NCBI GenBank assembly: GCA_003246265.1
Contig: QKAU01000012.1
Span: 1 to 64,000, forward strand
Direction of reading: 5' to 3'
Length of the DNA stretch: 64,000 bases
Source: Kiritimatiellales bacterium
GTDB taxonomy: Bacteria; Verrucomicrobiota; Kiritimatiellia; Kiritimatiellales; Pontiellaceae
Shown: positions 2,044-19,205 of the stretch, piece after piece
How the letters are laid out: each line of letters begins with the position of its first letter
How positions within the stretch are numbered: the first letter of the stretch is position 1
Position numbers and translations under genes: made by a program
Notes under the pieces: model-generated
The model's input: the letters and a program-made list of their open reading frames with translations, nothing else
What the model was told of the DNA's origin: nothing
Databases searched by the model: none

Positions 2044-2088
2044 CTGTTTATTTGACTAGTAGACGCCATCCCGAAGCCTGCCTAACGT
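2044..2088 (+). promoter_or_regulatory. Family 1 operator/promoter, copy 1 (upstream of sensor kinase)
   Basis: CTGTTTA (2044-2050), two bases, then TGACTAG (2053-2059) followed by TAGA form the weakest of four dyads. A TAACGT hexamer lies 30 nt after the start of TGACTAG (2083-2088). Its location ahead of the two-component genes would allow autoregulation if the cognate regulator binds here. Confidence 0.55.
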
Positions 2089-2220
2089 CTGGCCCTGACG
2101 GTGGGGTGTTGGGCCCTGGAGGCAGGGTGGATCATCGGCGACATGTATTGACGGCTCCGCAGCGCCTGGCCACACTTTCTCTCCAGGTTTCGTGAACCGA
2201 CGGCAAGGAGCGGCACAAGG

Positions 2221-5052
2221 ATGTGGAGCGTGAAGACGATGAATTCCAGGCCGGGCGCGCCCGGGGCCATATCGATGCTCCTGCTGCTTGCGCTGCAAGT
2301 CGCCAGCGCACAGACCATCCAGTTCGACTTCTGCGAGCTGGAAGGCTTTGAGAGCGGCGACATCAACAACCATCCCCGCTGGGTGAGCTACGCCAAGGCC
2401 AACGTGGTCGATGCGGCGGGGTCGGGCCATGTGCAACTCTCGCCCGAAGCGGAATGGGTGAATTCCATCTGCGCCATCGGCGTAGCGTCGAAGGATGCGC
2501 TGCTCAAGGCGTCTGCGCGGCTTTCCTTTTCCGAAGGGTTTGCCAGTGGGCGCGGCGATCTTTTCAGCCTCGTTGCGATGGAGTCCCCCCACATCGACGT
2601 GCCGGCTTTGCGCGTTGCCTTGAGGCGGGTCGACGACCGCTACCTGCTGTTCTTCAAGTCCTCCGCCGGGAATCCGGTCTTTTCCCGCGCGGTGGACCGG
2701 TCGGAACTTGGGTTTGGCGGGGAACTCCACAGGTCCGGCGACGAACTCGGACTGACGATGGGCCTGCTCCGGGGAAGCAAACCCGAAATATGGGTCGTGG
2801 AAACGGTGCTTTCGAACCTGACCCGGTCGGTCGAGCTCCTCTCTCTATCCCTCACCAATGTGGCAACGACCGCCGAATTCCACGACGCTCCCGCATGCTA
2901 TTTCGGTTTCAGCTCATCCATGCGGGAAAAGAGCCATGGTGCCGAAAACCGGCAGGTAGGCTACTTCGAAGTCGCGCGGAGCGGTGCCGAGGATCCGGCG
3001 TTGCCGGCGGCGAACGGCACGGCGGCGACTCCGAGGTTCGGCTTCAGCCCCCTGTACGGCGCGGGCCGCGGGTCCGACGGTTGGACCGCCGGGAAAAAAG
3101 TGGCGTTGCTCGACATCCCCCACACGGTGAACGAACTGAGGGACAAGCAGCAGGGACTGCAGGCGGAACTGGCCATGCTGCCCATGCTCAACGACACCCT
3201 CCAGTTCGAAGCCTATGGATACCACAGCGGCTACTTCCCGGTACTCCGCGAACTTCCCGCCAATCCCCGTTGGACGCTCGATTTCACCTTCAACCCCAAC
3301 ATCTCGCTCTCCAAGATCATCCTCGTGCCGGCGGTGGACCACCGCTACGGCCAATTGAGCAGCTATGGCTTTCCGGAACGCTTCCGCGTGCTGACGGTAT
3401 CCGCCGACGGCAGCGCCCACGTGGCGCAGGAGTGGATGGATGCGGACTGTCCGGATCCCGGCCGATATCCGGTGATCATCGATGTGCCGCACGCCGGCGA
3501 CTGCAAGGTCCGGATCGAGGTTTTCCGCGGATGCGAGGATGGCGGCCGGGAAATGTTCGCACTCGATGAACTCTTCGGGGTCATGGGCATGGCGGACCAC
3601 CCCTGCATCGAAGTGAAGGCCAGCTCCGAATTCGAGTCGCCTCCCTACTGGGGGAAGCGGTTCCTGATCGACCGCAAGACCAGCCTGGGGCTGCCGCTGG
3701 ATGTACGGTTCGACATCGGGGCCAATGGTTCCGATAAGGATTTTGTCGTTACGTTCGATGCCCCGCCGCCCTCCAACAGCTGCGTGGTCGAACTGGATTT
3801 GGGCGAAAACAGGAAAATGGGGTGGATTACGCTCTTCCCGGCCCAGTCGTCGCAAGGGATCATGACGCCGGGATTCGGCTTTCCTGCAACCTTGGCGCTG
3901 GAGATGGTCGTGGATGCCGGCGACGGGGAGCGCGGCGTGACGCGGCGCGTTCCGTGGGACTGGAGAACGCTCAGGCCCGGCAACAACATCGTGCGGCTTC
4001 CAGGCGCGGACATGAGTGGAAGGTGGATGCGGATCCACGTCGACGACCTGCCCTTGCGCAACGGGAAGCCCACGTTCGCCATGGGGGAATTCCATGTTTT
4101 CCGCCAGGAAACAACCTATCCCATCAGGGCGATCCGCCTGGAGGGCTTCCCCGAGGAGGCGGCTTCCCGCATCCATCTGCTGATGGACGGGAAGTCGGGA
4201 GGGCATCCAATCATGTTTCCGATGGATTGGCTCCACCTGATCGAACGCCGAAACCATCTCACCCATTCCCTGACGGAGGTCACCGAGGCCGAAAACCTGC
4301 TGCAGCAGCAGTGGAACCGGTTCTGGAGAATCTCCATTTCCAGCACGGTCCTCCTCCTGGCACTCGCTGCGGTTGCCATAGCGGTGACGGTGACCCTTCA
4401 GCGGCAGAAGTCGCTCCGGGAGCTGAAATGGCGCATAGCGCGCGACCTGCATGACGAGGTGGGCAGCAGCCTGGGCAGCATCTCGCTTACGGCAGAGCGG
4501 CTGGAGGCCGACCTTCAGGACGCAGGCATGCGAAGCGACCTGTTCGAATTGGGTCTCCTGGCGCGCGAGGCTTCGGCCTCGCTCCGCGACGTGGTCTGGG
4601 TGATCGACCAGAGCGAAATCCGCCTCCCCGTGCTGGTACAAAAGCTCATCGACCGGGCGGAACGGACGCTGCGCGGCATGGAACTGACGGTGGAGGTGCC
4701 CTCGGACATTCCGGACCACGTGGTCCCGCTGAGTTGCAAGCGGCATCTGATCATGTTCTTCAAGGAGGTCATCCACAACTGTGCCCGGCACTCGGGGGCA
4801 ACGAAGGTATCCATCGCCATATCGACGGGCAACAACCACCTGCAATTGAGCATACGCGACAACGGGTGCGGCTTCGACCCCGGCCAGGCGAGGGATGGAT
4901 GGGGGCTCGACAGCCTGAGGAAGCGGGCCGAAGAGCTGGGTGGAACCGTCAGGATCCATACCGCCCCGGGAGAGGGCACCGCGATCGAACTGGCCATTCC
5001 CCAGTCAACGTTGTTTACCCGGAACGACCACTATTATAAAACATCGAACTAG
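2221..5052 (+). CDS. Membrane sensor histidine kinase, NarL/DegS type, with a giant periplasmic sensor
   Basis: This is the sensor half of a two-component system. Order in 943 aa: signal peptide (about 1-30), a beta-rich domain (about 35-265), two discoidin/galactose-binding-like repeats (about 310-480 and 490-665), one membrane helix (about 704-726), then a HisKA_3 dimerisation helix with H744 in RDLHDEVG and a HATPase_c domain (about 835-935) with FKEVIHNCARHS and DNGCGFD. The sensor's start (EGFESGD) and end resemble the first domains of the secreted proteins at 8942 and 23905, suggesting related ligands. The start at 2221 has AAGGAG at 2205; M7 is an alternative. The response regulator follows 20 nt downstream. 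A family 1 dyad lies upstream. The ligand is unknown; a galactan oligosaccharide is an inference from context. Confidence 0.88.
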   Translation: MWSVKTMNSRPGAPGAISMLLLLALQVASAQTIQFDFCELEGFESGDINNHPRWVSYAKANVVDAAGSGHVQLSPEAEWVNSICAIGVASKDALLKASARLSFSEGFASGRGDLFSLVAMESPHIDVPALRVALRRVDDRYLLFFKSSAGNPVFSRAVDRSELGFGGELHRSGDELGLTMGLLRGSKPEIWVVETVLSNLTRSVELLSLSLTNVATTAEFHDAPACYFGFSSSMREKSHGAENRQVGYFEVARSGAEDPALPAANGTAATPRFGFSPLYGAGRGSDGWTAGKKVALLDIPHTVNELRDKQQGLQAELAMLPMLNDTLQFEAYGYHSGYFPVLRELPANPRWTLDFTFNPNISLSKIILVPAVDHRYGQLSSYGFPERFRVLTVSADGSAHVAQEWMDADCPDPGRYPVIIDVPHAGDCKVRIEVFRGCEDGGREMFALDELFGVMGMADHPCIEVKASSEFESPPYWGKRFLIDRKTSLGLPLDVRFDIGANGSDKDFVVTFDAPPPSNSCVVELDLGENRKMGWITLFPAQSSQGIMTPGFGFPATLALEMVVDAGDGERGVTRRVPWDWRTLRPGNNIVRLPGADMSGRWMRIHVDDLPLRNGKPTFAMGEFHVFRQETTYPIRAIRLEGFPEEAASRIHLLMDGKSGGHPIMFPMDWLHLIERRNHLTHSLTEVTEAENLLQQQWNRFWRISISSTVLLLALAAVAIAVTVTLQRQKSLRELKWRIARDLHDEVGSSLGSISLTAERLEADLQDAGMRSDLFELGLLAREASASLRDVVWVIDQSEIRLPVLVQKLIDRAERTLRGMELTVEVPSDIPDHVVPLSCKRHLIMFFKEVIHNCARHSGATKVSIAISTGNNHLQLSIRDNGCGFDPGQARDGWGLDSLRKRAEELGGTVRIHTAPGEGTAIELAIPQSTLFTRNDHYYKTSN

Positions 5053-5072
5053 GCAGGTAGGCGGAGAGGCAC

Positions 5073-5708
5073 ATGATACCGATCGATGTATGGATTGTCG
5101 AGGATGACGCAGGCTACCGCCGGAACCTGCGCCAGTCGCTCGCGCGGGAGAAGCACATTACATGCAGCCGGGTTTTCCCTTCCTGCGTCGAATTCCTGCA
5201 GGCCATCCGGTCGGGGGATTCCCCGGACCTGGTCCTCATGGATCTGGGATTGCCGGGGATGGGCGGCGTCGAAGGCATACGGGAACTCGGGAAGATCGCT
5301 CCGGATGTCACCGTCATCGTGCTGACCGTAATGGAGAACAAGGAAAAGGTGATCGAATCGCTGGATGCCGGTGCGGCGGGCTATCTGTTGAAATCCTCCT
5401 CCATCCGCGAAATCGTCGAAGGGCTGCAGCAGGTCTTCGTGGGCGGGGCCGCACTGAGCCCCGCCGTGGCCAAGATCGTGCTCGAAGAGGTCCGCAAGCC
5501 CGCGCCCACCGAGTCCTTCAACCTGTCCGATCGCGAGGTGGACGTGCTGGAGCAGCTGGCGGAAGGGTTGTCGGTGAAGGAGATCGCCGCGGTGCTGGAC
5601 ATCAGCCGTGCCACGGCCGCGTTCCACCTCGGCAACATCTACCAGAAGCTCAATGTGCAGTCCCAGACCGGCGCAGTGGCCAAGGCCCTGCGCGCCGGCA
5701 TCATCTAG
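5073..5708 (+). CDS. NarL/LuxR-family response regulator
   Basis: This 211-aa response regulator has an N-terminal receiver domain (acidic cluster EDD at about 10-12, phosphoacceptor D57 in LMDLGLPG, conserved K107 in YLLKS) and a C-terminal LuxR-type helix-turn-helix (about 147-208; LSDREVDVLEQLAEGLSVKEIA). It is the evident partner of the HisKA_3 kinase just upstream, with which it should be co-transcribed. NarL-family regulators bind DNA as dimers at short inverted repeats. That makes the four CTAkTCA-N2-TGACTAG dyads upstream of 2221, 5928, 13966 and 19230 the best candidate targets. The assignment of these targets is inference; the gene identity is secure. Confidence 0.95.
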   Translation: MIPIDVWIVEDDAGYRRNLRQSLAREKHITCSRVFPSCVEFLQAIRSGDSPDLVLMDLGLPGMGGVEGIRELGKIAPDVTVIVLTVMENKEKVIESLDAGAAGYLLKSSSIREIVEGLQQVFVGGAALSPAVAKIVLEEVRKPAPTESFNLSDREVDVLEQLAEGLSVKEIAAVLDISRATAAFHLGNIYQKLNVQSQTGAVAKALRAGII

Positions 5709-5791
5709 CGCCTCCCAGCGGTCTTGCCCGGCAACCGGCCGCGGACATGCGCAAAGGGCTCTCCCATCGCCGGTTTGGTCCCGGATCCGGC

Positions 5792-5837
5792 CTATTCACA
5801 TGACTAGTAGATCTGGCCAATTCCCCTGGTGTAAACC
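5792..5837 (+). promoter_or_regulatory. Family 1 operator/promoter, copy 2 (upstream of giant sulfatase)
   Basis: CTATTCA (5792-5798), two bases, TGACTAG (5801-5807) and TAGA form a near-perfect dyad (one mismatch). TAAACC at 5832 lies 31 nt after the TGACTAG start. The dyad centre would sit roughly 40-45 nt upstream of a start site, typical for an activator adjoining the -35 region. Confidence 0.6.
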
Positions 5838-5927
5838 TATCCGTATCTGGTCGGGAAAGTAGCCGGGCCAAGGAGGGCATCCCACGTGCGGATGTGCTGG
5901 ACCAGGCAAAAAGGAAGGGAACCGGGG

Positions 5928-8816
5928 ATGAAAAAGTTGGCAATTGGTATTTCGGCATGGGTAGTGGTCGCGGTTGCGCAGGGCGGCACGATGGTCCATT
6001 GGGGGGCCGCGGATACGGGCGCGGACATGTTTGCCGCTTCGGCGAACCATAATCCCAAGCCGTCGGCCTACTATACCCCCGGCAACGTGTTTGGCGATGA
6101 AACCGTGCACGACGGCTCTTCCGTGGCGCCGGTCGAGTCGCAGACCTACAACGTCGCCGCCTATGCGGACGGCGTCCTGAGCATCTCCAAGGACATCGAT
6201 TCCGTGGTCGGTGCCGCCGCCACGGAGGGCGGGGACTCCATCTTTGTCCAGGACGCCCTGTGGACCTCCATGCAGGCGATGGTCGTATGGGAAAACTTCG
6301 CCACCACCAACACCACGCTCGAGTCCATTGCCATGGGCGGACGGTGCGTCGGCGACAGCGGCACCCTCTGCTACCTGATCGAGAAGGACAACGGTGGATC
6401 CACGGCATGGTACATCAGTGCGCCGAGCCTTACGCTCGGTACCGCCTACGTTTCCACCTCCACCACCAATCCCGCTGCGCTTAGCTGGTACGAATTCACC
6501 CCGCTCAGCGGCGACGGCGGGATCATCGGCGATGTGGCCTTCCCAGGCATGGACAACATCACCTCCGTCGGCGTCTACGTCGACGTCGTCAAGGCCACCA
6601 GCGGGAACGTCGGCTTCAAGCTCAACTATTTCAGCGCCACCTCGGCGGGCACCAACGCACCTCCCGCCAACCAGCCGCCCATGTTCACCAGCAATCCGAT
6701 CATCAAGCCGAACGCCGATATCGGCGAGGCCTACACCAACAGCATCGCCGGCGACGCCACCGATCCGGAGGGCGATCCGATGGGCTTCTCGAAGGCCTCC
6801 GGTCCGGACTGGCTGCAAGTGGCGGCCGACGGCACGATCTCGGGTACACCGGCTTCGACCAATGTGGGGTTGAACGTTTTCGCTGTCCATGTATCGGCGA
6901 CGGGCGGCGTGGATAGCGCCACGTTGCGGATTACGGTCAATGCCCCGCCGCCGGACCCGACCGGATGGGACGATTTCGTGGCCGCCTTTGGCCTGGGCGG
7001 CACCATGGACGACGATGCCGACCACGACGGCGTGCTGGACGTCTACGAATTCGCGCACGGCGGCAACCCGACGAATCCGGCGGACCGGGGAACCGAACCC
7101 CGCATCGCCTATGGTTCCAACGATGTCGTGAGCTTCATCTGCATGGAAACCGCCCACACCAACCCGGGCATCGCCTATACGGCCGAATGGATCGATCGGC
7201 TGACCACCAACACCTGGAGCCAGGATTGGGACCGCACCAACACGGTGGCGGCCGCGCTCGCCGGCTACAACGAAGTGGAGCGGCAAATCAGCGGGGCTGG
7301 CCGCGAGCAGCTCTTCTTCCGCAACCGGCTCTTCCCCGCGACCGTTCCGCCTTCCGGCGGCCGCCCCAACATCGTCTTCATCCTGTGCGACGATCTGGGC
7401 TATTCCGATGTTGGATTCAGTGCCGAATACAGCCGTGCCCGCTGGGGATCGCAGACGACCCTGGTACAGAAGAGCCCAGCGGTGGAAACCCCCGAGATCG
7501 ACAGCCTGGCCAACAACGGCATGATCTTCGCGCAGGCCTACATTCCCCATCCGTTCTGCGGGCCCAGCCGCATGGGACTCATGTCCGGACGCTATCCGCA
7601 CCATTTCGGCGCGGTGGAGAACCTGCCGTACGAAACCGCGGACCGTCCCGCCCAGGATATCCGCGATACCTACGGCTACCTGCCCGCGAACGATCTCGGG
7701 CTGCCGACCAGCGAAGTGACCATGGCCACCGTCCTCCAGGACGCCGGCTACCACACCGGTGCGATCGGCAAGTGGCACATGGGGGTTGCGCCCAACTACC
7801 ATCCGAACAACCGCGGCTTCGACTACTGGTTCGGATTCCTGGGCGGCGGCCACAACTACTATGCGCCGTGGATCTCCAAGTACGATCCCTCCGTGGTCAA
7901 CGACTACCAGTTCTGGCTGACCCGCAACAACGCCGAGACCAACATCCTCTCCGGGTACCTGACGGACATCCTTTCGGAGGACGCGGTCCACTTCATCAAC
8001 GACGCCCCGGCGGACCAGCCCTTCTTCCTCTACCTCTGCTACAACGCGCCGCACTCCCCGATGCAGGGCAAGTCCGAGGACCTGGTTGCGCGGTTCGGCG
8101 GCACCGGAGTCTATTCCAGCTATTCGGACCGGCAGAACCTCGTGGCCATGATGGATGCGGTCGACCGCGGCGTGGGGCAGATCGTCGACGCCCTGACGGC
8201 CAAGGGCGCGATGAACAATACGCTGATCGTCTTCCTCAGCGACAACGGCGGACGGGAGGTCGAGGACGATGCCGACAACTATCCGCTGCAGGGCGGGAAG
8301 GGCGACACGTACGACGGCGGCGTGCGCACGCCGATGTTCATGCACTATCCGGGGGTCATCCCCGCCGGCTCGATCTACGACCACGTGGTGACCGCATACG
8401 ACTTCTATCCGACCTTCGCCCGGCTGGGCGAGGCGACGATCCCCGGGACGAAGGTCCTTTCGGGCAGGGATATCTGGGATGCGGTCCTGTCCAACCAGAA
8501 CGCCCACCTCGACGACGTCATCATCTGGGCCCGCTACCAGAGCAACGGGTGGTCGCTGGGGCTGCGCAAGAACAACTACAAGGCCTGGCGCAAGAACTAC
8601 GGGGTCTGGGCCGTCTACGACCTGGCCCAGGACATCGACGAGAACAGCAGCATCGTCAACCAGCCCGCCGCGTCCGCCGCGCTCGACGCCATGCTTTCCA
8701 CGGCCCAGGAGTGGGGAACCCACGGGGAGGATCCGGAATGGTTCGATACGGACCAGTCGTATCTCAACTGGGAAGAGAACGGGATGCCGAAGTGGAACCA
8801 GTCGTTCAGCCGATAA
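5928..8816 (+). CDS. Giant multidomain secreted sulfatase
   Basis: The start at 5928 (MKKLAIG) has AAGGAAGGGA at 5911-5920 and leads into a signal peptide; the frame stays open 14 codons further upstream without one. Order in 962 aa: signal (1-20), beta-rich N-terminal domain (about 21-245), cadherin-like/He_PIG domain (about 249-345, starting NQPPMFTSNP), a Ca-loop module (DDDADHDGV to GGNPTNP, about 346-390) with a beta segment ending FFRNRLF, then a complete sulfatase domain (about 478-962). The sulfatase part has RPNIVFILCDD, formylglycine site C544 in CGPSRMG, GKWHMG and FLSDNGGR. Accessory modules placed N-terminal to the catalytic domain are unusual, since most sulfatases are about 500 aa and single-domain. 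The modules may anchor or target the enzyme to polymer (inference). Its architecture matches the protein at 11075. A family 1 element precedes it. Confidence 0.9.
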   Translation: MKKLAIGISAWVVVAVAQGGTMVHWGAADTGADMFAASANHNPKPSAYYTPGNVFGDETVHDGSSVAPVESQTYNVAAYADGVLSISKDIDSVVGAAATEGGDSIFVQDALWTSMQAMVVWENFATTNTTLESIAMGGRCVGDSGTLCYLIEKDNGGSTAWYISAPSLTLGTAYVSTSTTNPAALSWYEFTPLSGDGGIIGDVAFPGMDNITSVGVYVDVVKATSGNVGFKLNYFSATSAGTNAPPANQPPMFTSNPIIKPNADIGEAYTNSIAGDATDPEGDPMGFSKASGPDWLQVAADGTISGTPASTNVGLNVFAVHVSATGGVDSATLRITVNAPPPDPTGWDDFVAAFGLGGTMDDDADHDGVLDVYEFAHGGNPTNPADRGTEPRIAYGSNDVVSFICMETAHTNPGIAYTAEWIDRLTTNTWSQDWDRTNTVAAALAGYNEVERQISGAGREQLFFRNRLFPATVPPSGGRPNIVFILCDDLGYSDVGFSAEYSRARWGSQTTLVQKSPAVETPEIDSLANNGMIFAQAYIPHPFCGPSRMGLMSGRYPHHFGAVENLPYETADRPAQDIRDTYGYLPANDLGLPTSEVTMATVLQDAGYHTGAIGKWHMGVAPNYHPNNRGFDYWFGFLGGGHNYYAPWISKYDPSVVNDYQFWLTRNNAETNILSGYLTDILSEDAVHFINDAPADQPFFLYLCYNAPHSPMQGKSEDLVARFGGTGVYSSYSDRQNLVAMMDAVDRGVGQIVDALTAKGAMNNTLIVFLSDNGGREVEDDADNYPLQGGKGDTYDGGVRTPMFMHYPGVIPAGSIYDHVVTAYDFYPTFARLGEATIPGTKVLSGRDIWDAVLSNQNAHLDDVIIWARYQSNGWSLGLRKNNYKAWRKNYGVWAVYDLAQDIDENSSIVNQPAASAALDAMLSTAQEWGTHGEDPEWFDTDQSYLNWEENGMPKWNQSFSR

Positions 8817-8941
8817 CCGGGGTGTGGCGCTTGGAGGAAAACAGGTGGCATGGATGGGAGTCTGCGGACTCGGGGGATTGCAGCCCGGTGCCAGGGCTGG
8901 AGGATGAAAAGGGAACGATGCAAACCAGAGGAGAAGGAGAG

Positions 8942-10981
8942 ATGAAAATGGAGAACAGGAAACCAATCGCGTCGATGATCGCCGTGGCGTGCGCCGTGGT
9001 GTTGGCGGCGGGGCAGTCGCAGGCGGCCTTCACCGGATTCACGGCGGAAGAGGGCTATACGAACGGCTATCTTCGGGGACAGAACAATTGGCAGACGGCC
9101 TGGTCCGACACCAACCTGCCTCCGACCGCCTATGAGGTAGACACCACTGCCGCAGGGTATGGCGGTGCGCTGGGCATTGCGGTCATGAACGAGGGCTGGG
9201 CCTTCTGGAGCGAAAGCGTCGATCTGGTGAACCGGGGCGACACGGCGGTTGCCAAGGCCGTCTTCCGCTACAATGCGCAGGGGCAGACGCCGGCAGCCAA
9301 TGGCCAGCTCATGGAAATCGCCTTCCTGGGAACCGGCGGCAACGACCAGATCCGGGTCACGCTGCGCCGCACCGAGAAGCGGCCCAACGACGGGAACCGG
9401 AGCCGGATGTCGTTCCAGCTCGCCTCCACCGGAACGGGCGGCCTGTCTGCGCTGGCACTGGAATCCCACTACGAAGCGCACAACGGGGTCGGAACCACAG
9501 GCATCGGGCAAAGCGATTGGCTTGAGTTCACCGCCAAGCTCATGCGCGGCAAGACGCGCCTGGACTGGAAGCTGGACGTTATCGTTAAGAACCTGCAGAC
9601 CGGCGAGGTGGCCATCGCGGGGCGCTGGACGATCAAGTCGTCGTCCAACTTCTTCAATGTGGGCAACTACATCGCCCGGCTCAACGGCAAGGACATCGTG
9701 GAGAACAACATCGTGGCGGGCAGCCGGCAGATCGATTCGTATGAGATCTACTCCTACCCCCAGACCATCCTGTACGACGAGGTATGCGACGGAAACATCG
9801 ATGGCGCCAAGTCGAAGACCGAGGAAACCAGTACCCAGGGCGCTTCCGGAAACTGGACCATCGACAATTCCGATCCCTGGTACCATTGGGGATATCTGGC
9901 CAGCGTCAACTTCATCGGCAGCGTCGGCCACGATGCGTTTGGCAAGTTCGGTTCGCACAAGTCCAGCGATTGGGCCGTCAACCAGACGGGCCGCAAATGG
10001 ATATCCGGCATCGGCCGCTCTCCGGACATCGGCGAAACGGTCGAATGGAGCGTCAACTACCGGATGACCGCCGCGCCGGGCGATATCGACCAGCCCCATC
10101 TGGACCTCTATTTGACGGCCAACGGCATCGCCTTGACGTCAGGGACCGATGCCTCGACGAAGATCGCCTATGCCACCAACCAGGTGGCCGATGTGGAAGC
10201 GACCTATCCAAATGAGTACATGAAGATGCTTGGCGTCCGCATCTCCCAATACAACAGCCACATGGCCATCCATCTGAGGCCGGCGATCAACTACAGCAGT
10301 GTCGGATCGTCGAACACCGTCACCGGGTTCATCCCCCTTTCGGATATCGGCATCGCCGGCACCGACCGCGAAGGCGACCACCTGAACGTGGCCTTCCGGG
10401 CGAAGAAGCTCGAAACCCCCACGCTGTGGGATTGCAGCGTGATCATCTCCAATATCGATACCGGGGCGACGTGGACCTTCGCGGAGGACGGTCTGGCCAA
10501 TGCGCCACTCTACTATTCGGGGGCCTCCATCTATCCCACCGTCTACTCCCCCAAGGCGTTCAACGACGGGGATGGGTTCGAGATCGACGACCTGATCTGC
10601 CGCATCTACTACTCCTACGCCTTCACCGGGCCATGGAACATCTACGCGACCGAGCATGGGTTGAGCGGCGTCAAGACCGCCGACTGGGACAACGACGGCA
10701 TGAACGACTGGGGCGAGTACGTCTTCGGCGGCAATCCGACCAATCCGGCATCCATGGGCGCGTTGCCGACGTATGACGGCGTGTCCGGCGCCTATACCTT
10801 CCCGCTCCGGGGCGATCCGACGATCGTGGCGCACGTCATGACCAACGCCGATCTGGTCAATGGAGCGTGGGGCCTCTTCGAAACCATCTCCGTGGGCACG
10901 GCCGACGGTGTGGTCAGCAACTACACCAGCATCGTCGATACGGTGGGTTCCGCGGGCTATATCAAGCTCGAGGTTGAATAG
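8942..10981 (+). CDS. Exported beta-rich protein with C-terminal GGNPTNP module
   Basis: I do not recognise a named family. The 679-aa product has a signal peptide (about 1-27) and a first domain (about 28-270) beginning with EEGYTNG that resembles the exported protein at 23905 and the distal domain of the kinase at 2221. A second beta-rich region (about 300-560) contains GSVGHDAFGKFG. It ends with the shared Ca-loop (DWDNDGMNDWGEY), GGNPTNP and a beta domain ending IKLEVE. Two starts are possible, 8942 and 8948; the AAGGAG at 8934 fits the second better. It follows the sulfatase by 125 nt with no terminator seen between them, so co-transcription is likely. A terminator closes it. Lectin-like laminarin/galactan binding is possible but unproven. 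Confidence 0.75.
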   Translation: MKMENRKPIASMIAVACAVVLAAGQSQAAFTGFTAEEGYTNGYLRGQNNWQTAWSDTNLPPTAYEVDTTAAGYGGALGIAVMNEGWAFWSESVDLVNRGDTAVAKAVFRYNAQGQTPAANGQLMEIAFLGTGGNDQIRVTLRRTEKRPNDGNRSRMSFQLASTGTGGLSALALESHYEAHNGVGTTGIGQSDWLEFTAKLMRGKTRLDWKLDVIVKNLQTGEVAIAGRWTIKSSSNFFNVGNYIARLNGKDIVENNIVAGSRQIDSYEIYSYPQTILYDEVCDGNIDGAKSKTEETSTQGASGNWTIDNSDPWYHWGYLASVNFIGSVGHDAFGKFGSHKSSDWAVNQTGRKWISGIGRSPDIGETVEWSVNYRMTAAPGDIDQPHLDLYLTANGIALTSGTDASTKIAYATNQVADVEATYPNEYMKMLGVRISQYNSHMAIHLRPAINYSSVGSSNTVTGFIPLSDIGIAGTDREGDHLNVAFRAKKLETPTLWDCSVIISNIDTGATWTFAEDGLANAPLYYSGASIYPTVYSPKAFNDGDGFEIDDLICRIYYSYAFTGPWNIYATEHGLSGVKTADWDNDGMNDWGEYVFGGNPTNPASMGALPTYDGVSGAYTFPLRGDPTIVAHVMTNADLVNGAWGLFETISVGTADGVVSNYTSIVDTVGSAGYIKLEVE

Positions 10982-10995
10982 CCTGTTCAATGGGG

Positions 10996-11024
10996 AAGGG
11001 CGCCCGGCAGGGCGCCCTTCTTTT
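10996..11024 (+). terminator. Rho-independent terminator after 8942 gene
   Basis: AAGGGCGCC (10996-11004) pairs perfectly with GGCGCCCTT (11011-11019) around a 6-nt loop and is followed by CTTTT. It closes the 5928-10981 unit and sits only 51 nt before the next start. Confidence 0.85.
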
Positions 11025-11074
11025 CCTGGGTGAAGTGTGTTGGGGATGGAATCCACCATCCGGACGGGAGACGC

Positions 11075-13738
11075 GTGAAAGGAACCCTGGCAGCCATCAT
11101 TGGAATCGCACTGTCGGCGGCAGGTCCGGGATGGGGAACCATCATCGTATCGGGGTCGGTGGGCAATGGCGACTTCGAAGCCACCGAGCCGGCGGCATCC
11201 GGGCCCGAGTCCTTCGCGGACACCCCCTTCTGGTACAATGCGAGCGGTCCCGAAACGGCTGGGTGTACCGTGGATACGGGCACCTCGGGAAGCCCGCAAC
11301 CCGATTCGCGCGCAGCCGTTCCCTCCACGGACCAGGCCGTCAACGCCGCCGGCCATGTGGTGGCAGCGGCCGGCGAAACGCTCAGCATCGCCCTCTCCGT
11401 GCACAAATGGGGCAGCGGTTCCAAATACCAGGGCGATGAAACGGTCCGCATCAGCCTGTTCGTGGCTTCGGCCGTGGTCGATGACGGCCTGACGACCAAC
11501 GATCTCGCCGAAGTGGCCCACCTCTCCTTCAACATCGATGGAACCTGGGTGGACCATCCCTCGACACCCATCTATACCACCACTGCATCCGATGTGGGCA
11601 AGACGCTCCATCTCGGGTACCGGCTGGAAGACCCCACCCCCCCGAATCCAACCCCCCGCATGGATGTCCTGGAGCTGACCGTGGACGCCGGGATCTCCAA
11701 CGATCCGCCGGCATTCGCCACCGACCCGATCACCAAGCCGGACGCCCACGAGGGCGTGGCCTATGCCGGACAATCGCTTGCCGGCGACGCTTCCGACCCG
11801 GAGTCCGACCCGATCAGCTTCGCCAAGGTATTTGGTCCCGACTGGCTGCAGGTCGCGCCCGATGGCGCCTTGTCGGGAACGCCAGGTGCAGGTGACGCGG
11901 GGACGAACAACTTTGTCGTGCTGGCCAGCGCCCTGGGCGGTTCCGACGTCGCGACGCTGACCCTCCATGTCGAGCCCGTTCCGGTTGTGCTCGACGGCTG
12001 GGGGGAGTTTGTCGAGGTGTTCGGGTTGGGCGGACGAAAGTTCATCGATACCGACGGGGACGGCATGCTGGACATCTATGAATTCGCCCATGGGGGCGAT
12101 CCAACCAATCCGGTCAGCCGGGGCATCCTGCCCTACGTGGAATATGCCACGAACGGAACGGTTTCCTTCCACAGCACGGAATGCACCCACGACAATCCCG
12201 GCATCGCCTATACGGCGGAATGGACCGACAACCTGGCCACCGGCGGGTGGAGCACCGCCTGGAGCACGTCGGACAGCATGCCTGCGGCCATTCCGGGCTA
12301 CGTCGATGTGGTGCGGACGCTTCAGGGCGACAACGGGGACCAGCTCTACTTCCGCAACCGGCTCTTCACCTTCCGCCCCAACATCCTGGTCATCATGGCC
12401 GACGACCTCGGCTATGCGGACGTCGGCTTCAACGGATCCACCGACATCATTACCCCGGAACTGGACCGGCTGGCGTCCAATGGCACCGTTTTCACCTCCG
12501 CCTATGTCGTCCATCCCTTCTGCGGACCTAGCCGCATGGGGCTCTTTTCCGGACGATATCCGCATGAATACGGCGGACCCTTCAACCTGCCGAACTTCAG
12601 CACGGGGCAGTATGCCGACCAGGGCATACCCGTTGAAGAAACCCTGATCAGCTCGGTGCTCCAGAAGGCCGGGTACTTCACGGGCATCATGGGGAAATGG
12701 CACATGGGCCAGCAATCCATTCACCATCCGAACAACCGCGGCTTCGACGATTTCTACGGATTCCTGGGCGGCGGGCACGACTACTTCGGCCCCTATGGAT
12801 ATGCCAGCGACTACCGGACCTATCCCGAGCACAACGGCGTGGCCGACACCTCGCTCACCATGACCAACTACATCACCGATGTGCTGACCGAGTACGGGGT
12901 GCGCTTCCTGAACGAAGCCGTGGTTCGGGAACAGCCCTTTTTCCTCTTCATGTCCTACAATGCACCCCACACGCCGCTGGAGGCCAAGGACGAAGACCGG
13001 GCGGTCTTTCCCGACATCATCAACTATACCCGGCAGACCTATGCGGCCATGGTCTATGCACTGGACCGCGGCGTCGGAAGGCTGGTGGATGCCCTCGAAG
13101 CCCATGGCGAGCTCGACAACACCCTGATCATTTTCCTGAGCGACAACGGCGGCCGCACCGACCAGGGGGCTTCCAACTGGCCGCTGCGCGGCCGCAAGGG
13201 CGATGTCGTGGAAGGAGGGGTCCGCGTACCGTTCCTCATGCACTGGCCAAACGTCATTCCAGCGGGCACCACCTATGACCACCCCATATCGGCAATCGAT
13301 TTCTACCCGACCTTCGCGCGGTTGGCGCACGCCGAAATTCCCGCCGGCAAGGAGATCGATGGCGTCGACGTCTGGGATGCCATCCTTTCCGGAACCAGCG
13401 GCCGGGTCGGCCATCCGATCTTCACCCTGCGGCACAATCCCGGCTATGGCGCGACCGGCGAGCACAGCGTGGGCGTCCGGCAGGATCAATGGAAGGCGGT
13501 CCGATGGACCGAATTCGGTGCGCCCGTGACGTGGCGACTGTTCAACATCGAAGAGGACATCCACGAGGACAACGACCTGGGCGCCCTCTATCCAGCCATC
13601 CTGAGCAACCTGGTGCACGAGGCGAAGCTCTGGAGCGATACCCATGTCCAGCCGCTGTGGTTCGACGACTACGACCAGGAGCAGCTCTGGAACGACCGCA
13701 ACCTGCCGCTCTACGACCAGGTATTCTCCCTCCCTTAG
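11075..13738 (+). CDS. Giant multidomain secreted sulfatase (second copy)
   Basis: The likely start is GTG at 11075 (product MKGTLAAIIG, signal peptide 1-20) with GGGAG at 11066-11070; the frame stays open back to 11030. Order in 887 aa: an N-terminal beta domain (about 22-205) with GNGDFE, C-T-V-D-T and TTASDVGKT motifs shared with the C-terminus of the GH16 protein and the middle of the 23905 protein; a He_PIG domain (about 209-305); a Ca-loop/GGDPTNP module (about 306-350) ending YFRNRLF; and a full sulfatase domain (about 434-887) with RPNILVIMADD, C483 in CGPSRMG, GKWHMG and FLSDNGGR. From the He_PIG domain on it parallels the 5928 sulfatase, but the N-terminal domain differs. That indicates domain swapping after duplication. 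No regulatory element of either family is visible in the 93-nt gap, so it may depend on read-through or an unrecognised promoter. Confidence 0.88.
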   Translation: MKGTLAAIIGIALSAAGPGWGTIIVSGSVGNGDFEATEPAASGPESFADTPFWYNASGPETAGCTVDTGTSGSPQPDSRAAVPSTDQAVNAAGHVVAAAGETLSIALSVHKWGSGSKYQGDETVRISLFVASAVVDDGLTTNDLAEVAHLSFNIDGTWVDHPSTPIYTTTASDVGKTLHLGYRLEDPTPPNPTPRMDVLELTVDAGISNDPPAFATDPITKPDAHEGVAYAGQSLAGDASDPESDPISFAKVFGPDWLQVAPDGALSGTPGAGDAGTNNFVVLASALGGSDVATLTLHVEPVPVVLDGWGEFVEVFGLGGRKFIDTDGDGMLDIYEFAHGGDPTNPVSRGILPYVEYATNGTVSFHSTECTHDNPGIAYTAEWTDNLATGGWSTAWSTSDSMPAAIPGYVDVVRTLQGDNGDQLYFRNRLFTFRPNILVIMADDLGYADVGFNGSTDIITPELDRLASNGTVFTSAYVVHPFCGPSRMGLFSGRYPHEYGGPFNLPNFSTGQYADQGIPVEETLISSVLQKAGYFTGIMGKWHMGQQSIHHPNNRGFDDFYGFLGGGHDYFGPYGYASDYRTYPEHNGVADTSLTMTNYITDVLTEYGVRFLNEAVVREQPFFLFMSYNAPHTPLEAKDEDRAVFPDIINYTRQTYAAMVYALDRGVGRLVDALEAHGELDNTLIIFLSDNGGRTDQGASNWPLRGRKGDVVEGGVRVPFLMHWPNVIPAGTTYDHPISAIDFYPTFARLAHAEIPAGKEIDGVDVWDAILSGTSGRVGHPIFTLRHNPGYGATGEHSVGVRQDQWKAVRWTEFGAPVTWRLFNIEEDIHEDNDLGALYPAILSNLVHEAKLWSDTHVQPLWFDDYDQEQLWNDRNLPLYDQVFSLP

Positions 13739-13774: not shown

Positions 13775-13820
13775 CTATTCACCTGACTAGTAGACGTTGA
13801 ACCTGCCCGGAAGATACAAC
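13775..13820 (+). promoter_or_regulatory. Family 1 operator/promoter, copy 3 (upstream of subtilase)
   Basis: CTATTCA (13775-13781), CC, TGACTAG (13784-13790) and TAGA form the dyad. TACAAC at 13815-13820 lies 31 nt after the TGACTAG start. Sequence beyond the hexamer (CTATCC, then GTCG) also resembles copy 2. Confidence 0.6.
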
Positions 13821-13965: not shown

Positions 13966-16900
13966 ATGGGCGGAAAAAGGGGCAACGTATTCTTGGGCGT
14001 GCTACTGGCGGTTCTGGCGGCGGAAGCCATTCACGCGGAGACGTATGAGATCGACGAGGGAGGTTCCAGGAGAAGATTCGAATTGGCCATGGACGAAGTC
14101 CGCGTTGTCGCGTCGGGGCGCAAGGGCGGTCGGGGTGAGCTTCGCCGCATCGCGTCCCAAAGGGACGGGCATGCGATGAAACGCTATGTTCGCGACATGG
14201 CGGTCCGCCCGGGTGAAAAGGCGCAGCTTGTGCTCTATGAGGCGGGCCGTCCCCGCAGCGAATGGACCCGCTACTTTGTGACGGACGGGATTGTGGTCAA
14301 GTTGGGGCCGGATGCGGACATCAAGGCGATTGCCGTGTCCGCCGATGGCTATTGCGCGGGCCGACTCCCCTTCGCCTGCGATTTCGCGGTGGTCAATATC
14401 CGCAAGGGCAATGCGTTGGACGCGGCCGAAATCCTGCGGATGCAGCCGGGCGTCGTGTCGGCCGAGCCGCTGCTCGACCGGAAGCGTTCCAAACGCATGG
14501 TGCCCAACGATACCTTCTTCCCCCAGCAGTGGCATTTGCAGAATACGGCCCAGAATGCGGGAGCCGTGGCCGGGATGGATCTCAACTGCGTACCGGCGTG
14601 GGATTCGGCCACCGGAGCAGGCGTGGTGATCGGCATCCTGGACGACGGATTGGAAACCTCGCACACGGATTTGGCGGGCAATGTCGACCTGTCGCTCTGC
14701 TACGACTTCAACGAGGGGGACGCCGATCCCTCGCCCGATCCCGACTTTGATTACCACGGTACCGCCTGCGCCGGATGCGCCGCGGCCGTGGGCAACAACA
14801 GCAAGGGGGTCTCCGGCGTGGCGCCGCAGGCGAAACTGGCGGGGTTGAGGATGCTGGCCGGCGAGGAGAGCGACCTGGTCGAGGCCCAGTCGATGTACTT
14901 CAGCAACGGCGTCATTGCCGTCAAGAGCTGCAGCTGGGGTCCCGACGACTTCTTCTCCGAGACCGTCCAGGGTCCCGGCCAGCTTACGGAGCAATCCTGG
15001 ATCCATGCCGTCACCCATGGGCGGGGCGGATTGGGCACGGTCTTCCTGTTTGCCGCCGGCAACGGCGGGGAGGACGATTGGCAGACCGCCAACATGGACG
15101 GCTACGCCAACTCCATCTACACGATTGCCGTCGGCGGGGTAGGCGACCAGGGGACGCGGGTGGCCTACAGCGAGAAGGGTTCCTGCGTCGTCGTCTGCGC
15201 CCCCACCATCGACGACATCAACTCTCGGCCGGGGATCTGGACGACGGACCTGACGGGCAATGCGGGCTACAATCCCTACGATGAGACGATCTCGCCCAAC
15301 AAGAGCTTCACGGCCACCTTTGGCGGCACGTCGGCATCCTGTCCGCTGGCTGCCGGGGCCGTCGCCCTCATGCTCGAGGAGAATCCGGGCCTGGGATGGC
15401 GCGACGTGCAGGAGATCCTGATGGTCTCGGCCACGAAGAACGATGCGGCCAACCCGGGCTGGTTCACGAATGGCGGCGGGTTGGAATTCAACCATGAATA
15501 CGGTGCCGGACTGATCGACGCGAATGCCGCGGTCCAGCTTGCCGGCGTATGGACCAACCTGGGCCCCCAGGTATCCATCGCCCACGAAGAGGACGGGGTT
15601 GCACTGGCGATCCCCGACAACCATCCGGCCGGCGTGGCACGGAGCCATGCCTGCACCAAGGAGATCCGCCTCGAACATGTGGTCCTCACGGTCGATATTG
15701 CGCATGCCCGTCGTGGCAACCTGCAGATCGAGCTCACTTCGCCCTCCGGGACGCGAAGCGTCATGATGGATGCGCGCCCGAGCGATGATACCAGCGACTA
15801 CGACCACTGGAGCATGATGACGGTGCACAACTGGGGGGAGTCTTCCCTGGGCACATGGACCGTCAAGGTCATCGATACGGTTGCCGGCACGGCCGGAACA
15901 CTCAACGGGTACAAGCTCGAATTTTTCGGGACGGCGGACGATGCCCCGGTCGTGGAAATCGCTACCCAGCCGGCCAAGGTAGGCGCGGGGACGACCAGCT
16001 ATGTGGTCGAAGGATCCGTGACCGGCAATGTGGTGGGCAATCTTGCATGGCGCAACGACGCCAATGGGGCAACCGGCACCATTCCGGCGACCGCAAGCTG
16101 GACCGTGCCCTCGGTACCGCTGGTACCCGGACCGAACCCCATATGGATCATGGCGGAAAACAGTGCCGGCATTCCGGCGGCAAGGAGCGTGGTCATTACC
16201 CGCACACGGCCACCGCTGGCCCCGTGGTTCCAGGGTTTTGAAACGGTGCAGACGGAACTGACGTGGGAGCCCTTGGATACCTGGGAGCCGATTGACGGAG
16301 CCGGAGCCGTCTCTGGATACAGTGGCGGGTACGACTATCCGATCTACCAAACCATCAGGACCGGCCTGCAATCCTGGCAGTCATGGATGATCGAAAGCGG
16401 AACGCCGACCCTCGAGCTTGCGGAGGTATCGGTCGCCGCCTTGGCCGGCGTGAAGACGCTGACGGCGCATCTGTCCGCAACGACCTACGAAAACGACATG
16501 CTTGACCTGGTCGGCATGACGGACGGTGCTTCGTTGAAGGTCTACGTAGCCCTCGACGGGGCTGCCTATCCGGCCACGCCCGACCTCACCGTCCGGGGGA
16601 AAGGCTCGGTCGATGGCGCCCGGTGGGGCTATGACGCCACCGGCGTTGCCTCTGCGACGGCCGGTGTGCCAGCCATCTTCCAGCCTGCCGCGGAAGGCGA
16701 GCTGGCCGATGGATATTCCACCTTGCGCATCGCCATCCCGGCAGGGGCATCGACGGTGAAGATCAAATTCGTAGCCGACAACGGCGGGCTGTACGAGCCC
16801 AGCTGGAACATCGACGACATTGCCCTGGCGGGCGAAACCGGCACGCTCCGCCTCAATGCCATCAAGGTGGCTGGCGGGGCCGTTCATCTTGGGTGGCAGG

Positions 16901-17064
16901 GCGGGAATCCTTTCGCAACGCAGATCGTGGAATGCAAGACGAACCTGGTGGATGCGGGCGAAGCATGGAAAGCGCTGTACATCGCAGCGCCGGGCGAGAC
17001 GAACCATGTCCATGCGGTTCCCTCCGGCGACACCCTCTACTATCGTATCAGAACCCAACCCTGA
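13966..17064 (+). CDS. Secreted S8 subtilisin/kexin-like protease with P-domain
   Basis: The start at 13966 (MGGKRGN) has GGAGGA at 13957 and gives a signal peptide (1-24). A propeptide-like region (about 25-190) precedes the S8 catalytic domain (about 200-500), with D226 in GILDDGLETSHTDL, H264 in DYHGTACAG, a likely oxyanion N in FAAGNGG and S456 in GGTSASCP. A P-domain (proprotein convertase type, about 550-655) follows, with LEHVVLTVDIAHARRGNLQI and WTVKVIDT. Further beta-rich regions run to 1032 aa and end in LYYRIRTQP, the C-terminal pattern seen in other secreted proteins here. It could process locus proteins or act on algal glycoproteins; that role is inference. A family 1 element precedes it and a strong terminator follows. 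Confidence 0.9.
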   Translation: MGGKRGNVFLGVLLAVLAAEAIHAETYEIDEGGSRRRFELAMDEVRVVASGRKGGRGELRRIASQRDGHAMKRYVRDMAVRPGEKAQLVLYEAGRPRSEWTRYFVTDGIVVKLGPDADIKAIAVSADGYCAGRLPFACDFAVVNIRKGNALDAAEILRMQPGVVSAEPLLDRKRSKRMVPNDTFFPQQWHLQNTAQNAGAVAGMDLNCVPAWDSATGAGVVIGILDDGLETSHTDLAGNVDLSLCYDFNEGDADPSPDPDFDYHGTACAGCAAAVGNNSKGVSGVAPQAKLAGLRMLAGEESDLVEAQSMYFSNGVIAVKSCSWGPDDFFSETVQGPGQLTEQSWIHAVTHGRGGLGTVFLFAAGNGGEDDWQTANMDGYANSIYTIAVGGVGDQGTRVAYSEKGSCVVVCAPTIDDINSRPGIWTTDLTGNAGYNPYDETISPNKSFTATFGGTSASCPLAAGAVALMLEENPGLGWRDVQEILMVSATKNDAANPGWFTNGGGLEFNHEYGAGLIDANAAVQLAGVWTNLGPQVSIAHEEDGVALAIPDNHPAGVARSHACTKEIRLEHVVLTVDIAHARRGNLQIELTSPSGTRSVMMDARPSDDTSDYDHWSMMTVHNWGESSLGTWTVKVIDTVAGTAGTLNGYKLEFFGTADDAPVVEIATQPAKVGAGTTSYVVEGSVTGNVVGNLAWRNDANGATGTIPATASWTVPSVPLVPGPNPIWIMAENSAGIPAARSVVITRTRPPLAPWFQGFETVQTELTWEPLDTWEPIDGAGAVSGYSGGYDYPIYQTIRTGLQSWQSWMIESGTPTLELAEVSVAALAGVKTLTAHLSATTYENDMLDLVGMTDGASLKVYVALDGAAYPATPDLTVRGKGSVDGARWGYDATGVASATAGVPAIFQPAAEGELADGYSTLRIAIPAGASTVKIKFVADNGGLYEPSWNIDDIALAGETGTLRLNAIKVAGGAVHLGWQGGNPFATQIVECKTNLVDAGEAWKALYIAAPGETNHVHAVPSGDTLYYRIRTQP

Positions 17065-17083
17065 TCGCATTTTCATGGGTCCG

Positions 17084-17123
17084 GGGCGGTGCGCATCGGG
17101 TGATGCGCGCCGCCCTGTTTTTT
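17084..17123 (+). terminator. Strong Rho-independent terminator after subtilase
   Basis: GGGCGG-T-GCGCATC (17084-17097) pairs with GATGCGC-G-CCGCCC (17102-17115) with one internal T-G wobble and a 4-nt loop. TGTTTTTT follows. It isolates the subtilase from the GH16 gene. Confidence 0.85.
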
Positions 17124-17134
17124 ATCCGCGAAGG

Positions 17135-17173
17135 GTTTGGATCGGCATATAATTTTGAAAAATCGGCCCTGTC
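17135..17173 (+). promoter_or_regulatory. Family 2 regulatory/promoter element, copy B
   Basis: GGATCG at 17139-17144 matches the GATCG part of the first block, with GGC exactly 25 nt after GATCG as in copies A and D. GGCCCTGTC starts at 17165. A perfect TATAAT is present at 17148-17153, a few bases out of register with the other copies. The GH16 start is at 17283. Confidence 0.5.
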
Positions 17174-17282
17174 ACACCGATTGATGACATGAATACTCAA
17201 CGATTGCACTCGGGCAATCTCTAACGGGTTGCCGCTGTGCCAAAGGTGGAAATGCGTTTCCTCCGCGGAAAAGAGGGAAAAG

Positions 17283-19088
17283 ATGAAAAGTACACTGCTA
17301 TCGTTGCTCATGCTCCTTCCGGCCACCGGTGCCGTGGCGTCCTATCCGCATACGGATCCCGGCAATGTCGGGAACTGGGTGCTGCTCGAAGGGATGAGCG
17401 ACGAGTTCGAGACCGCTCCGCTGGATGAGGCCAAATGGCTGGTCCAGGGCCGCAATGGCCAGTTCCAGTCCAACTTCCGGGGCCGCGGGTACACGGATGC
17501 CGAAGGGGGAGGGGGCTGGCAGTTTTCGCCGGACAACGTCCGGGTGGAGAACGGCCTGCTGAAGATTACGACGAAGTACGAGCCCGACTACCCGTGGATC
17601 GACCTGGGCAACGGCACCAACGACTTCGACTTCACGACCGGCGCCGTGATCACGAAGCAGACGTTCCTCCGCGGGTACATGGAGATCCGCTGCAAGGCCG
17701 CCAATGCCAAGACGACCAGCTCGTTCTGGACGACCGGCAACGGGGCGGAACTGGACGTTTTCGAAGCCATCGGAAGCCATGCGACGCGGACGGACAAGAT
17801 GTGGTCGACCATCCACGACTGGCAGTTGCCGTCGACGCCCAACTATGTCTGGACGGAAACGGCGACCCTTCCCTTCGATTTCGGGGACGGGTTCCACACC
17901 TATGCCGCCGAGTGGGACGACACGTCGGTGAAATTCTATGCCGATGGCCAGTTGATTACTACGGCGACCAAGGCGTGGGTCGAGCAGAACGGCATCTATT
18001 CGCAGCGCTGGCCCCTGACCGGCGGCCAATACGTCTGGGCCGACTCCGAAATCTTTCCGTGGTGGGGCGTGCCCCCTACGAACAGCCTGCCCGCCGACTA
18101 CGAGATCGAATATATCCGGGTGTGGCAGCGGAGCGAACGCACCCCCTGGCAGGAGTTCGCCTTCCAGTACGGGCTGCCCGGATACAAGAGCGCGCACAGC
18201 GACGCGGATGATCGCGACGACTGGAGCGAATACGTGCTCGGGGGCAATCCGACCAATCCGGCCGACATCGGGGTGATGCCTTCGTTCGATGCCCAGACGG
18301 GGGCCTTCCTCTACCAGGTCAGGAACGATACCTCGCTGGTGGCCCGTGTGGTTTCCAAGACGGACCTGGCGGCGCCGGCGTGGACCACCAATGGAACCGT
18401 CCATGTCGCCAGCCATGACGGCGGGATGGGGAACTACACCAACCTGCTGGGCACGGCGGCCTCCAATCTCTTCGCGAAGCTGGTGGTGGAGGATCTTTAC
18501 GGCGTGGGCTACCACATCGTGATCGGTGAAGGCGGCAGCAATGGCGTGCCGAGCAGCGGGAATGGAAACTTCGAGGCCGGGACGGGTTCGGGGGCCGGGT
18601 ATGCGATATCGCTGATGCCGCACTGGCACAACCTCACCGCGGCCGAGTCGCAGACCTGCGGGACCACGACCGGGATGGAAGGCAGCCCGGAGCCGAACTC
18701 GCACGGGTGCTGGCTCTTCCAAAGCTTCACCGTCGCGAACGATACCGGATATACGGTCGTGGCTCCCGGGGAGCGGTTCTATCTCTCCCTGCATGGCAAG
18801 GCGCATGGCGACCCCTCCGTCTACAACGGCGACGAGAAGGTGGTGCTGATCCTGTTCACGACACCCTCGGGCGTTACCGATGCGACGGGCATGGGGGACA
18901 TCACGGTCCTGGGCACCACCAAGCTTCCGGTGAGCGGCGGATGGGCTCCCTACGTTGCGGATTCCGTATACCTGTCGACACCCGCGGACGTGGGGAAGAC
19001 GGTCTACCTGGGGTTGACGCTCGAAAATCCCACGGGGTCCAATGTCTTTCCGCGCTTCGACCGCATCGTGCTCGAAGTGAACAAGTAG
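17283..19088 (+). CDS. Secreted glycoside hydrolase family 16 enzyme
   Basis: GH16 enzymes are retaining endo-hydrolases of beta-glucans or galactans (laminarin, agar, porphyran, carrageenan). The start at 17283 follows an AGAGGG site and gives a signal peptide (about 1-19). The catalytic domain (about 20-285) carries the diagnostic ELDVFE, with nucleophile E156, D158 and acid/base E161. MSDEFE and IEYIRVWQR mark its two ends. Next come a Ca-loop/GGNPTNP module (about 290-415, ending LFAKLVVED) and a C-terminal domain (about 425-601) with GNGNFE and STPADVGKT, homologous in pattern to domains in 11075 and 23905. The subfamily cannot be assigned by eye. The neighbouring sulfatases and anhydrogalactose genes favour a sulfated galactan substrate. 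A family 2 element precedes it. Confidence 0.9.
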   Translation: MKSTLLSLLMLLPATGAVASYPHTDPGNVGNWVLLEGMSDEFETAPLDEAKWLVQGRNGQFQSNFRGRGYTDAEGGGGWQFSPDNVRVENGLLKITTKYEPDYPWIDLGNGTNDFDFTTGAVITKQTFLRGYMEIRCKAANAKTTSSFWTTGNGAELDVFEAIGSHATRTDKMWSTIHDWQLPSTPNYVWTETATLPFDFGDGFHTYAAEWDDTSVKFYADGQLITTATKAWVEQNGIYSQRWPLTGGQYVWADSEIFPWWGVPPTNSLPADYEIEYIRVWQRSERTPWQEFAFQYGLPGYKSAHSDADDRDDWSEYVLGGNPTNPADIGVMPSFDAQTGAFLYQVRNDTSLVARVVSKTDLAAPAWTTNGTVHVASHDGGMGNYTNLLGTAASNLFAKLVVEDLYGVGYHIVIGEGGSNGVPSSGNGNFEAGTGSGAGYAISLMPHWHNLTAAESQTCGTTTGMEGSPEPNSHGCWLFQSFTVANDTGYTVVAPGERFYLSLHGKAHGDPSVYNGDEKVVLILFTTPSGVTDATGMGDITVLGTTKLPVSGGWAPYVADSVYLSTPADVGKTVYLGLTLENPTGSNVFPRFDRIVLEVNK

Positions 19089-19160
19089 CCTGCTGCACAC
19101 GCCGCCGCCGCACCTTGACGTTCAATCGAAGCGGAGGAGCTTGGCGGGTTAAGGTTTCGC

Positions 19161-19205
19161 CTAGTCAGTTGACTAGTAGAATTTCTCCATGACCCGGGCT
19201 ACAAC
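19161..19205 (+). promoter_or_regulatory. Family 1 operator/promoter, copy 4 (perfect dyad)
   Basis: CTAGTCA (19161-19167), GT, TGACTAG (19170-19176) is a perfect 7+7 inverted repeat followed by TAGA. TACAAC at 19200-19205 is 30 nt after the TGACTAG start. It ends 24 nt before the PEP-CTERM gene and defines the symmetry of the family. Confidence 0.65.

Follow-up and report, generated by a model that had tools for sequence, protein, structure and literature searches.

A predicted NarL-type operator at four promoters of a Kiritimatiellales sulfatase cluster and its counterparts in a paralogous regulator family

Introduction

Regulation by NarL-type proteins from a 7-2-7 site, i.e. a pair of inverted heptamers with a 2-bp spacing, is already known. 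In Escherichia coli, NarL activates ogt from such a site at -44.5 abutting the -35 element (PMC7419079), and the 7-2-7 site from which it activates napF lies at -40 to -49 (PMC4549865). The cluster described here has in common with the NarL/NarP operators of E. coli (the ogt NarL II site, napF and yeaR) a 7-2-7 arrangement near -44.5 abutting the -35 element (PMC7419079, PMC4549865), and with NarL/NarP systems the combination of a HisKA_3 kinase and a GerE-type regulator. It differs from them in that its heptamer, CTAGTCA, is not the NarL consensus, there is no sign of a nitrate signal, and the predicted regulon is a local enzyme cluster.

The hybrid two-component systems (HTCS) of Bacteroides polysaccharide utilization loci mostly control adjacent loci. 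In two accounts of them, polysaccharide genes are under the control of numerous paralogous membrane sensors (PMC11253607, PMC3878776), which is a likeness to the family presented here. Unlike HTCS, the kinase and regulator of our cluster are separate, unfused ORFs, the DNA-binding domain is of the GerE/NarL type, and the host organisms belong to the Kiritimatiellae and other Verrucomicrobiota.

Sulfatases and glycosidases abound in Pontiella-type bacteria. For Pontiella agarivorans, PF07730 kinases and response regulators have been reported near GHs and sulfatases and joint regulation has been suggested, in an account from the same genus that gives no operator, promoter, regulator family or specificity (PMC10880615). 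In the literature searched, we found nothing on how Pontiella-type sulfatase/glycosidase clusters are switched on, and no description of the expanded regulator family or its operators, which appear to be readable from genomes.

Here, we describe a gene cluster in the window, by which we mean the whole stretch of DNA analysed (64,000 nucleotides of contig QKAU01000012.1 from a Kiritimatiellales bacterium). The genome it belongs to is of the Pontiella type (3.0 Mb; 2,997,214 bases in 81 contigs, 96% complete). An operator, together with its promoter geometry, regulator and regulon, predicts sets of co-regulated enzymes, and therefore which enzymes are partners in handling one sulfated polysaccharide. 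The paralogous family also supplies about 30 natural pairs of helix and operator from which the NarL-type DNA code could be learned, and is a source for insulated regulator-promoter pairs.

Four dyads in one cluster

An earlier note on this DNA had proposed a four-copy dyad operator, each copy standing just upstream of a gene and followed by TAGA. Four such dyads are indeed present at the positions it gave, on the plus strand (Table 1), and the right arm TGACTAG is identical in all of them, as is the TAGA directly after it. The left arm that had been proposed, CTAkTCA, is wrong for copy 1, which departs from it by two mismatches and has only 4/7 palindromic pairs; copies 2 and 3 have 6/7 each, and copy 4 is the perfect inverted repeat it was said to be, with all seven pairs. 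One copy does precede the regulator's own operon, but this putative autoregulatory site is copy 1, with its poor left arm the weakest of the four. Every copy is intergenic and lies on the strand of its gene, in a region of which intergenic DNA makes up 7%.

Table 1. Coordinates of the dyads, predicted promoters and genes of the cluster, and of receiver-only proteins at other loci
Feature	Source	Position	Strand	Remark
Dyad copy 1	window	2044..2059	+	CTGTTTA-TT-TGACTAG; before kinase-regulator operon; weakest left arm
Promoter 1	window	2060..2088	+	-35-like TAGACG 2060-2065, 17 bp, -10-like TAACGT 2083-2088
Sensor histidine kinase	window	2221..5052	+	HisKA_3 + HATPase_c; CBM32-like ectodomain fold (model)
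NarL-type response regulator	window	5073..5708	+	receiver + GerE HTH; predicted dyad binder
Dyad copy 2	window	5792..5807	+	CTATTCA-CA-TGACTAG
Promoter 2	window	5808..5837	+	-35-like TAGATC, 18 bp, -10-like TAAACC 5832-5837
Sulfatase	window	5928..8816	+	with Ig-like domain; first gene behind copy 2
Secreted protein	window	8942..10981	+	no family assigned; second gene behind copy 2; terminator-like hairpin after
Dyad copy 3	window	13775..13790	+	CTATTCA-CC-TGACTAG
Promoter 3	window	13791..13820	+	-35-like TAGACG, 18 bp, -10-like TACAAC 13815-13820
Subtilase	window	13966..17064	+	Peptidase_S8 + P_proprotein; behind copy 3
Dyad copy 4	window	19161..19176	+	CTAGTCA-GT-TGACTAG; perfect 7-2-7
Promoter 4	window	19177..19205	+	-35-like TAGAAT, 17 bp, -10-like TACAAC 19200-19205
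PEP-CTERM protein	window	19230..19925	+	behind copy 4
Receiver-only protein	L130	9209-9592		
Receiver-only protein	L131	3806-4195		
Receiver-only protein	L134	8056-8430		
Receiver-only protein	L136	8786-9157		
Receiver-only protein	L137	10804-11202		

With up to two mismatches, there were seven dyad matches against 0.11 expected from shuffled windows. A matrix scan of the window scored the four sites at 31-37, the next sequence that was not a mirror match at 7.4 and the best site of the reversed window at 15.3, and found no additional weaker sites. Our genome-wide statements come from pattern searches: at up to two mismatches, the genome yielded the four sites plus one mirror-strand match, and a search for the right half-site with a TA at the fitting distance (TGACTAGTWG-N20/21-TA) yielded exactly four matches, every one inside the cluster. 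The objection that the dyad might be randomly scattered fails because the genome holds no other copy, and the predicted regulon is confined to the cluster at 2044-19205. The dyad was also considered as an RNA element and rejected as such, with no Rfam match in positions 1-28000 and a two-base loop that cannot make a hairpin.

Promoter anatomy

In every copy, the TA hexamer begins 30 or 31 nt on from the initial T of TGACTAG, in line with the spacing noted earlier. From the regulator family as a whole we collected 35 dyad promoters, in which a hexamer TAGAC- or TTGAC- directly follows the dyad. This hexamer had to begin with T and to have G as its third base, whereas positions 4 and 5 were left free; A is seen at position 4 in 25 of the 35 and C at position 5 in 20. 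In 30 of them, the TA hexamer lies 17 or 18 bp behind the -35-like hexamer. Sequences matching TATAAT at four or more of six positions peak at offsets 30 (12/35) and 31 (16/35), other offsets having 0-8; TA at 30/31 is part of the site score, which makes the -10 phase partly circular, while hexamer positions 3-6 are unscored and independent. Because of this hexamer pattern and the 17-18 bp spacing, we take TAGA to open a -35 element, with the TA hexamer as the -10 element.

Counting from the predicted -10 element, the dyad would span about -52 to -37, with its centre near -43.5 or -44.5. The typical activator position claimed in the earlier note is thereby upheld at the level of prediction, the dyad abutting the putative -35 element with a centre near -44, as in the NarL sites of E. 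coli. All four promoters fail a simple scan for the sigma-70 consensus, a result to be expected if these promoters need an activator.

The regulator and its orthologues

The regulator has both a receiver domain (PF00072, 74.9 bits) and a GerE domain (PF00196, 66.1 bits) above cut-off. It falls far below the cut-offs for NarL (110.2 of 250 bits) and NarP (113.8 of 343 bits). Its best-scoring named family is that of the MadR-type response regulators (NCBIfam NF047785), of which it is not a member, since it scores 122 bits and the cut-off is 300.

Relatives that are 71-82% identical occur in Pontiella sulfatireligans (L045/L126), in further genomes of the genus, in G022 (L020) and G027 (L127), in the order-level relative G107 (L152) and in an Opitutaceae MAG (L049). 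Downstream of the regulator, at a distance of 6-561 nt, the dyad recurs with unchanged promoter spacing at L126 (minus strand, near 9528), L020, L127, L152 and L049, and a variant of it lies downstream of the regulator at L150. No recognisable dyad was found near the clade members at L128, L139, L145, L154 and L050, two of which are on short contigs.

Across 29 genomes of the family, the pattern TGACTAGTWG-N20/21-TA occurs only in G000 (four times), G022 (once), G027 (twice) and G028 (once), all of which encode an orthologue at least 80% identical. In G002, the regulator is 82% identical and the dyad is absent beside it; one exact dyad stands on another contig, before an AraC-family gene. Orthologues that share the recognition helix thus have the dyad either next to them or at another place in their genome. 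Exact dyads are present in 4 of 376 genomes of the phylum, three of them with a regulator of the same clade. Two kinds of match were set aside as chance: the exact dyad of G339, which falls within sequence that is apparently coding and has no TA hexamer at 30/31, and the one-mismatch TAGTCANNTGACTA matches in other genomes of the family, which lack the -35/-10 context, with the exception of the second G027 site, the one on contig C8 of G002 and the matches that neighbour orthologues.

Paralogous regulators and their dyads

Paralogous regulators, 61-75% identical, have different dyads in the same place: CTGTCCA-TA-TGGACAG, CTATCAA-TT-TTGACAG, CTGGCCA-TT-TGGCCAG, CTAGAGA-TT-TCTCCAG, CGGGTCA-TT-TGACCCG and CTGTAAA-AT-CTTACAG. 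The 7-2-7 geometry of the cluster is retained beside them. A scan based mainly on this geometry and blind to the letters of the half-sites found 13 sites in 548 kb, against none in the reversed sequence and 0-1 in Markov sequence. With automatic assignment, a downstream site scoring at least 10 was found for 24 of 40 regulators, compared with 6.8% of Markov controls; the identical scan behind distant NarL-type regulators gave 4 of 25 (Fisher p 7e-4). The genome G027 alone has eight regulators of the clade, with differing operators.

We think it probable that these proteins form a family, undescribed so far and spread by horizontal transfer, of split two-component systems that serve polysaccharide loci in the Kiritimatiellae and in some other Verrucomicrobiota. 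In such a family, helix and operator would have co-diversified, giving up to eight regulators with distinct operators per genome (G027) and a readable helix-to-operator code that predicts each regulon.

Variants of this arrangement were also seen. In a subclade whose helix ends in NLYxKL (L140 at 4194, L141 after 2646, L146 at 8079 and L156 at 9562), dyads such as CCTGTAGG-TT-CCTACAGG are followed directly by TAGAC, with a one-base shift relative to the -35 element that represents a variant geometry. In one subclade, five regulators have behind them a CTAGAGA-type dyad with promoter and then a receiver-only protein of 124-133 aa, which resembles the regulator's receiver without the HTH; a phosphate sink or a feedback part is a possible role.

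Covariation of helix and dyad

Dyad distance correlates with recognition-helix distance (r 0.58). The correlation persists when receiver distance is controlled (partial Mantel r 0.549, permutation p 2e-4, n 31, a run in which a few dyads were picked by eye) and, under the same control, when dyads are assigned automatically (r 0.540, p 5e-4, n 24); with the helix controlled, that between dyad and receiver is 0.088 (p 0.16). The best of 122 protein columns is helix position 8, and positions 7 and 11 are within the best eleven. By alignment, helix positions 8, 7 and 11 correspond to NarL residues 189, 188 and 192, which we take to be DNA contacts in the NarL-DNA complex. On the regulator tree, dyad classes track clades that mix genera and families, with 4 changes compared with 16.5 after shuffling.

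Linkage contributes to the correlation because dyad and regulator are mostly neighbours and are inherited together. This concern is partly countered by the control for the receiver and by the unlinked sites in G002 and G027. The covariation is the pattern expected of a regulator-operator pair, and we regard it as strong but not final. Together with conservation beside orthologues and near-absence elsewhere, it supports the earlier suggestion that the local NarL-type regulator binds the dyad, which is very probably its operator.

Proposed regulation and alternatives

The best explanation, which we hold with considerable confidence, is that the dyad serves as operator of the regulator at 5073-5708 in a local, autoregulated polysaccharide regulon, with the regulator as activator at four promoters. 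The membrane kinase, whose outer part is modelled with a carbohydrate-binding-like fold, would sense a polysaccharide or its fragments and phosphorylate the regulator. A regulator dimer would then bind the 7-2-7 dyad abutting the weak -35 element (TAGAC) and recruit a sigma-70-type RNA polymerase at the promoters of its own operon, the sulfatase operon, the subtilase and the PEP-CTERM surface protein. The pair would be one of an expanded paralogous family in Kiritimatiellae and other Verrucomicrobiota, each regulator having its own dyad. Because the four dyads are very probably bound by a regulator encoded among them, the cluster probably switches itself on when the sensor meets food. The sequences themselves show the sites, their spacing, exclusivity and conservation, and the covariation of helix and dyad; binding, phosphorylation, the ligand, and activation rather than repression, are inferred. 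The earlier reading, an undescribed autoregulated regulon, appears right in substance, given that the dyad is conserved beside orthologues and its letters track the helix.

Could the same regulator instead be a repressor or a dual switch? A protein sitting at the -35 element, perhaps unphosphorylated, would block RNA polymerase until the signal arrives. At some promoters NarL, too, acts as a repressor (PMC4549865), the dyad lies directly against the -35 element, and the sign of regulation is unreadable from sequence. We nevertheless consider this improbable: a position near -44 upstream of a poor -35 element is the NarL activator position, the weak match of the promoters to the consensus suits activation, and all 35 sites lie upstream at one constant spacing, whereas a repressor site would usually overlap the start or the core promoter.

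It is less probable still that the dyad belongs to a regulator encoded elsewhere, i.e. one of the eight other GerE-type proteins, for which the genome has that many further domain matches, or the AraC-family protein at 27864. Adjacency by itself is no proof of binding, but across genera and classes the dyad is found together with orthologues of the regulator at 5073-5708 and its letters track that regulator's helix, while the dimeric 7-2-7 geometry fits a NarL-type protein rather than an AraC-type binder. Finally, duplication could produce 20-bp repeats within 17 kb, but a short repeat family or duplicated promoter fragments without specific regulator binding are scarcely credible, as the copies are unrelated outside the dyad, -35 and -10 elements, recur in distant genomes beside the orthologous regulator and have no counterparts elsewhere in their own genome.

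The sensor kinase

The kinase, which adjoins the regulator, matches PF07730 (38.1 bits) and PF02518 (45.5 bits), and its ectodomain has no Pfam match. In the structure models, residues from about 500 to 630 appear to resemble CBM32/F5-8C domains: the best VIA-align Z is 9.7, to a galactose-binding CBM32 (2.4 Å over 106 residues), in models of modest confidence with a mean pLDDT of 55 and 61. Over its first 230 residues the kinase model stays below a pLDDT of 50, and this part was left uninterpreted.

At the sequence level, residues 31-265 (2311-3015 in the window) show clear homology to a secreted protein that the cluster also encodes, at 23905-25593 (E 2e-9), so that the two proteins may have a binding domain in common. 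Between the kinase N-terminus and 8942-10978 the similarity (E 0.01) is too weak for homology to be claimed. From the resemblance of the models to CBM32 and the N-terminal homology to the cluster's secreted protein, we would guess that the ligand is a polysaccharide or its fragments. The GH16 enzyme is weakly similar to kappa-carrageenase (51 bits, cut-off 350), which hints at a sulfated galactan.

Genes behind the dyads

Copy 2 precedes the sulfatase operon, 5928-10981, and a strong terminator-like hairpin lies behind the subtilase at 17082-17117. Neither the sulfatase gene at 11078 nor the GH16 gene at 17283 has its own dyad, and they may stand outside the dyad regulon because terminator-like hairpins precede both, at 10982-11077 (read by eye) and 17082-17117, respectively.

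In other genomes, the first genes behind dyads encode sulfatases (L126, L049 and L136), GH95 (L155 and L147), a GH29 fucosidase (L155), GH2 (L150), a SASA esterase (L160) and an AraC regulator (L067); receiver-only proteins (five loci) and unknown secreted proteins are also found there. At L134, L147 and L160, a further dyad stands before the ORF directly 5' of the regulator, taken as the kinase by position and length.

Two of these loci deserve a separate description. At L155, in a genome outside Kiritimatiellae (G197), dyads at 9789 and 9609 precede the GH95 gene and a third, at 2425, precedes the GH29 fucosidase gene 7 kb away; this set is likely to be a fucan regulon. The AraC-family gene behind the exact dyad on contig C8 of G002 (L067, 1500-2563) encodes a protein 52% identical to the AraC protein of the window (27864-28826), which suggests a regulatory cascade.
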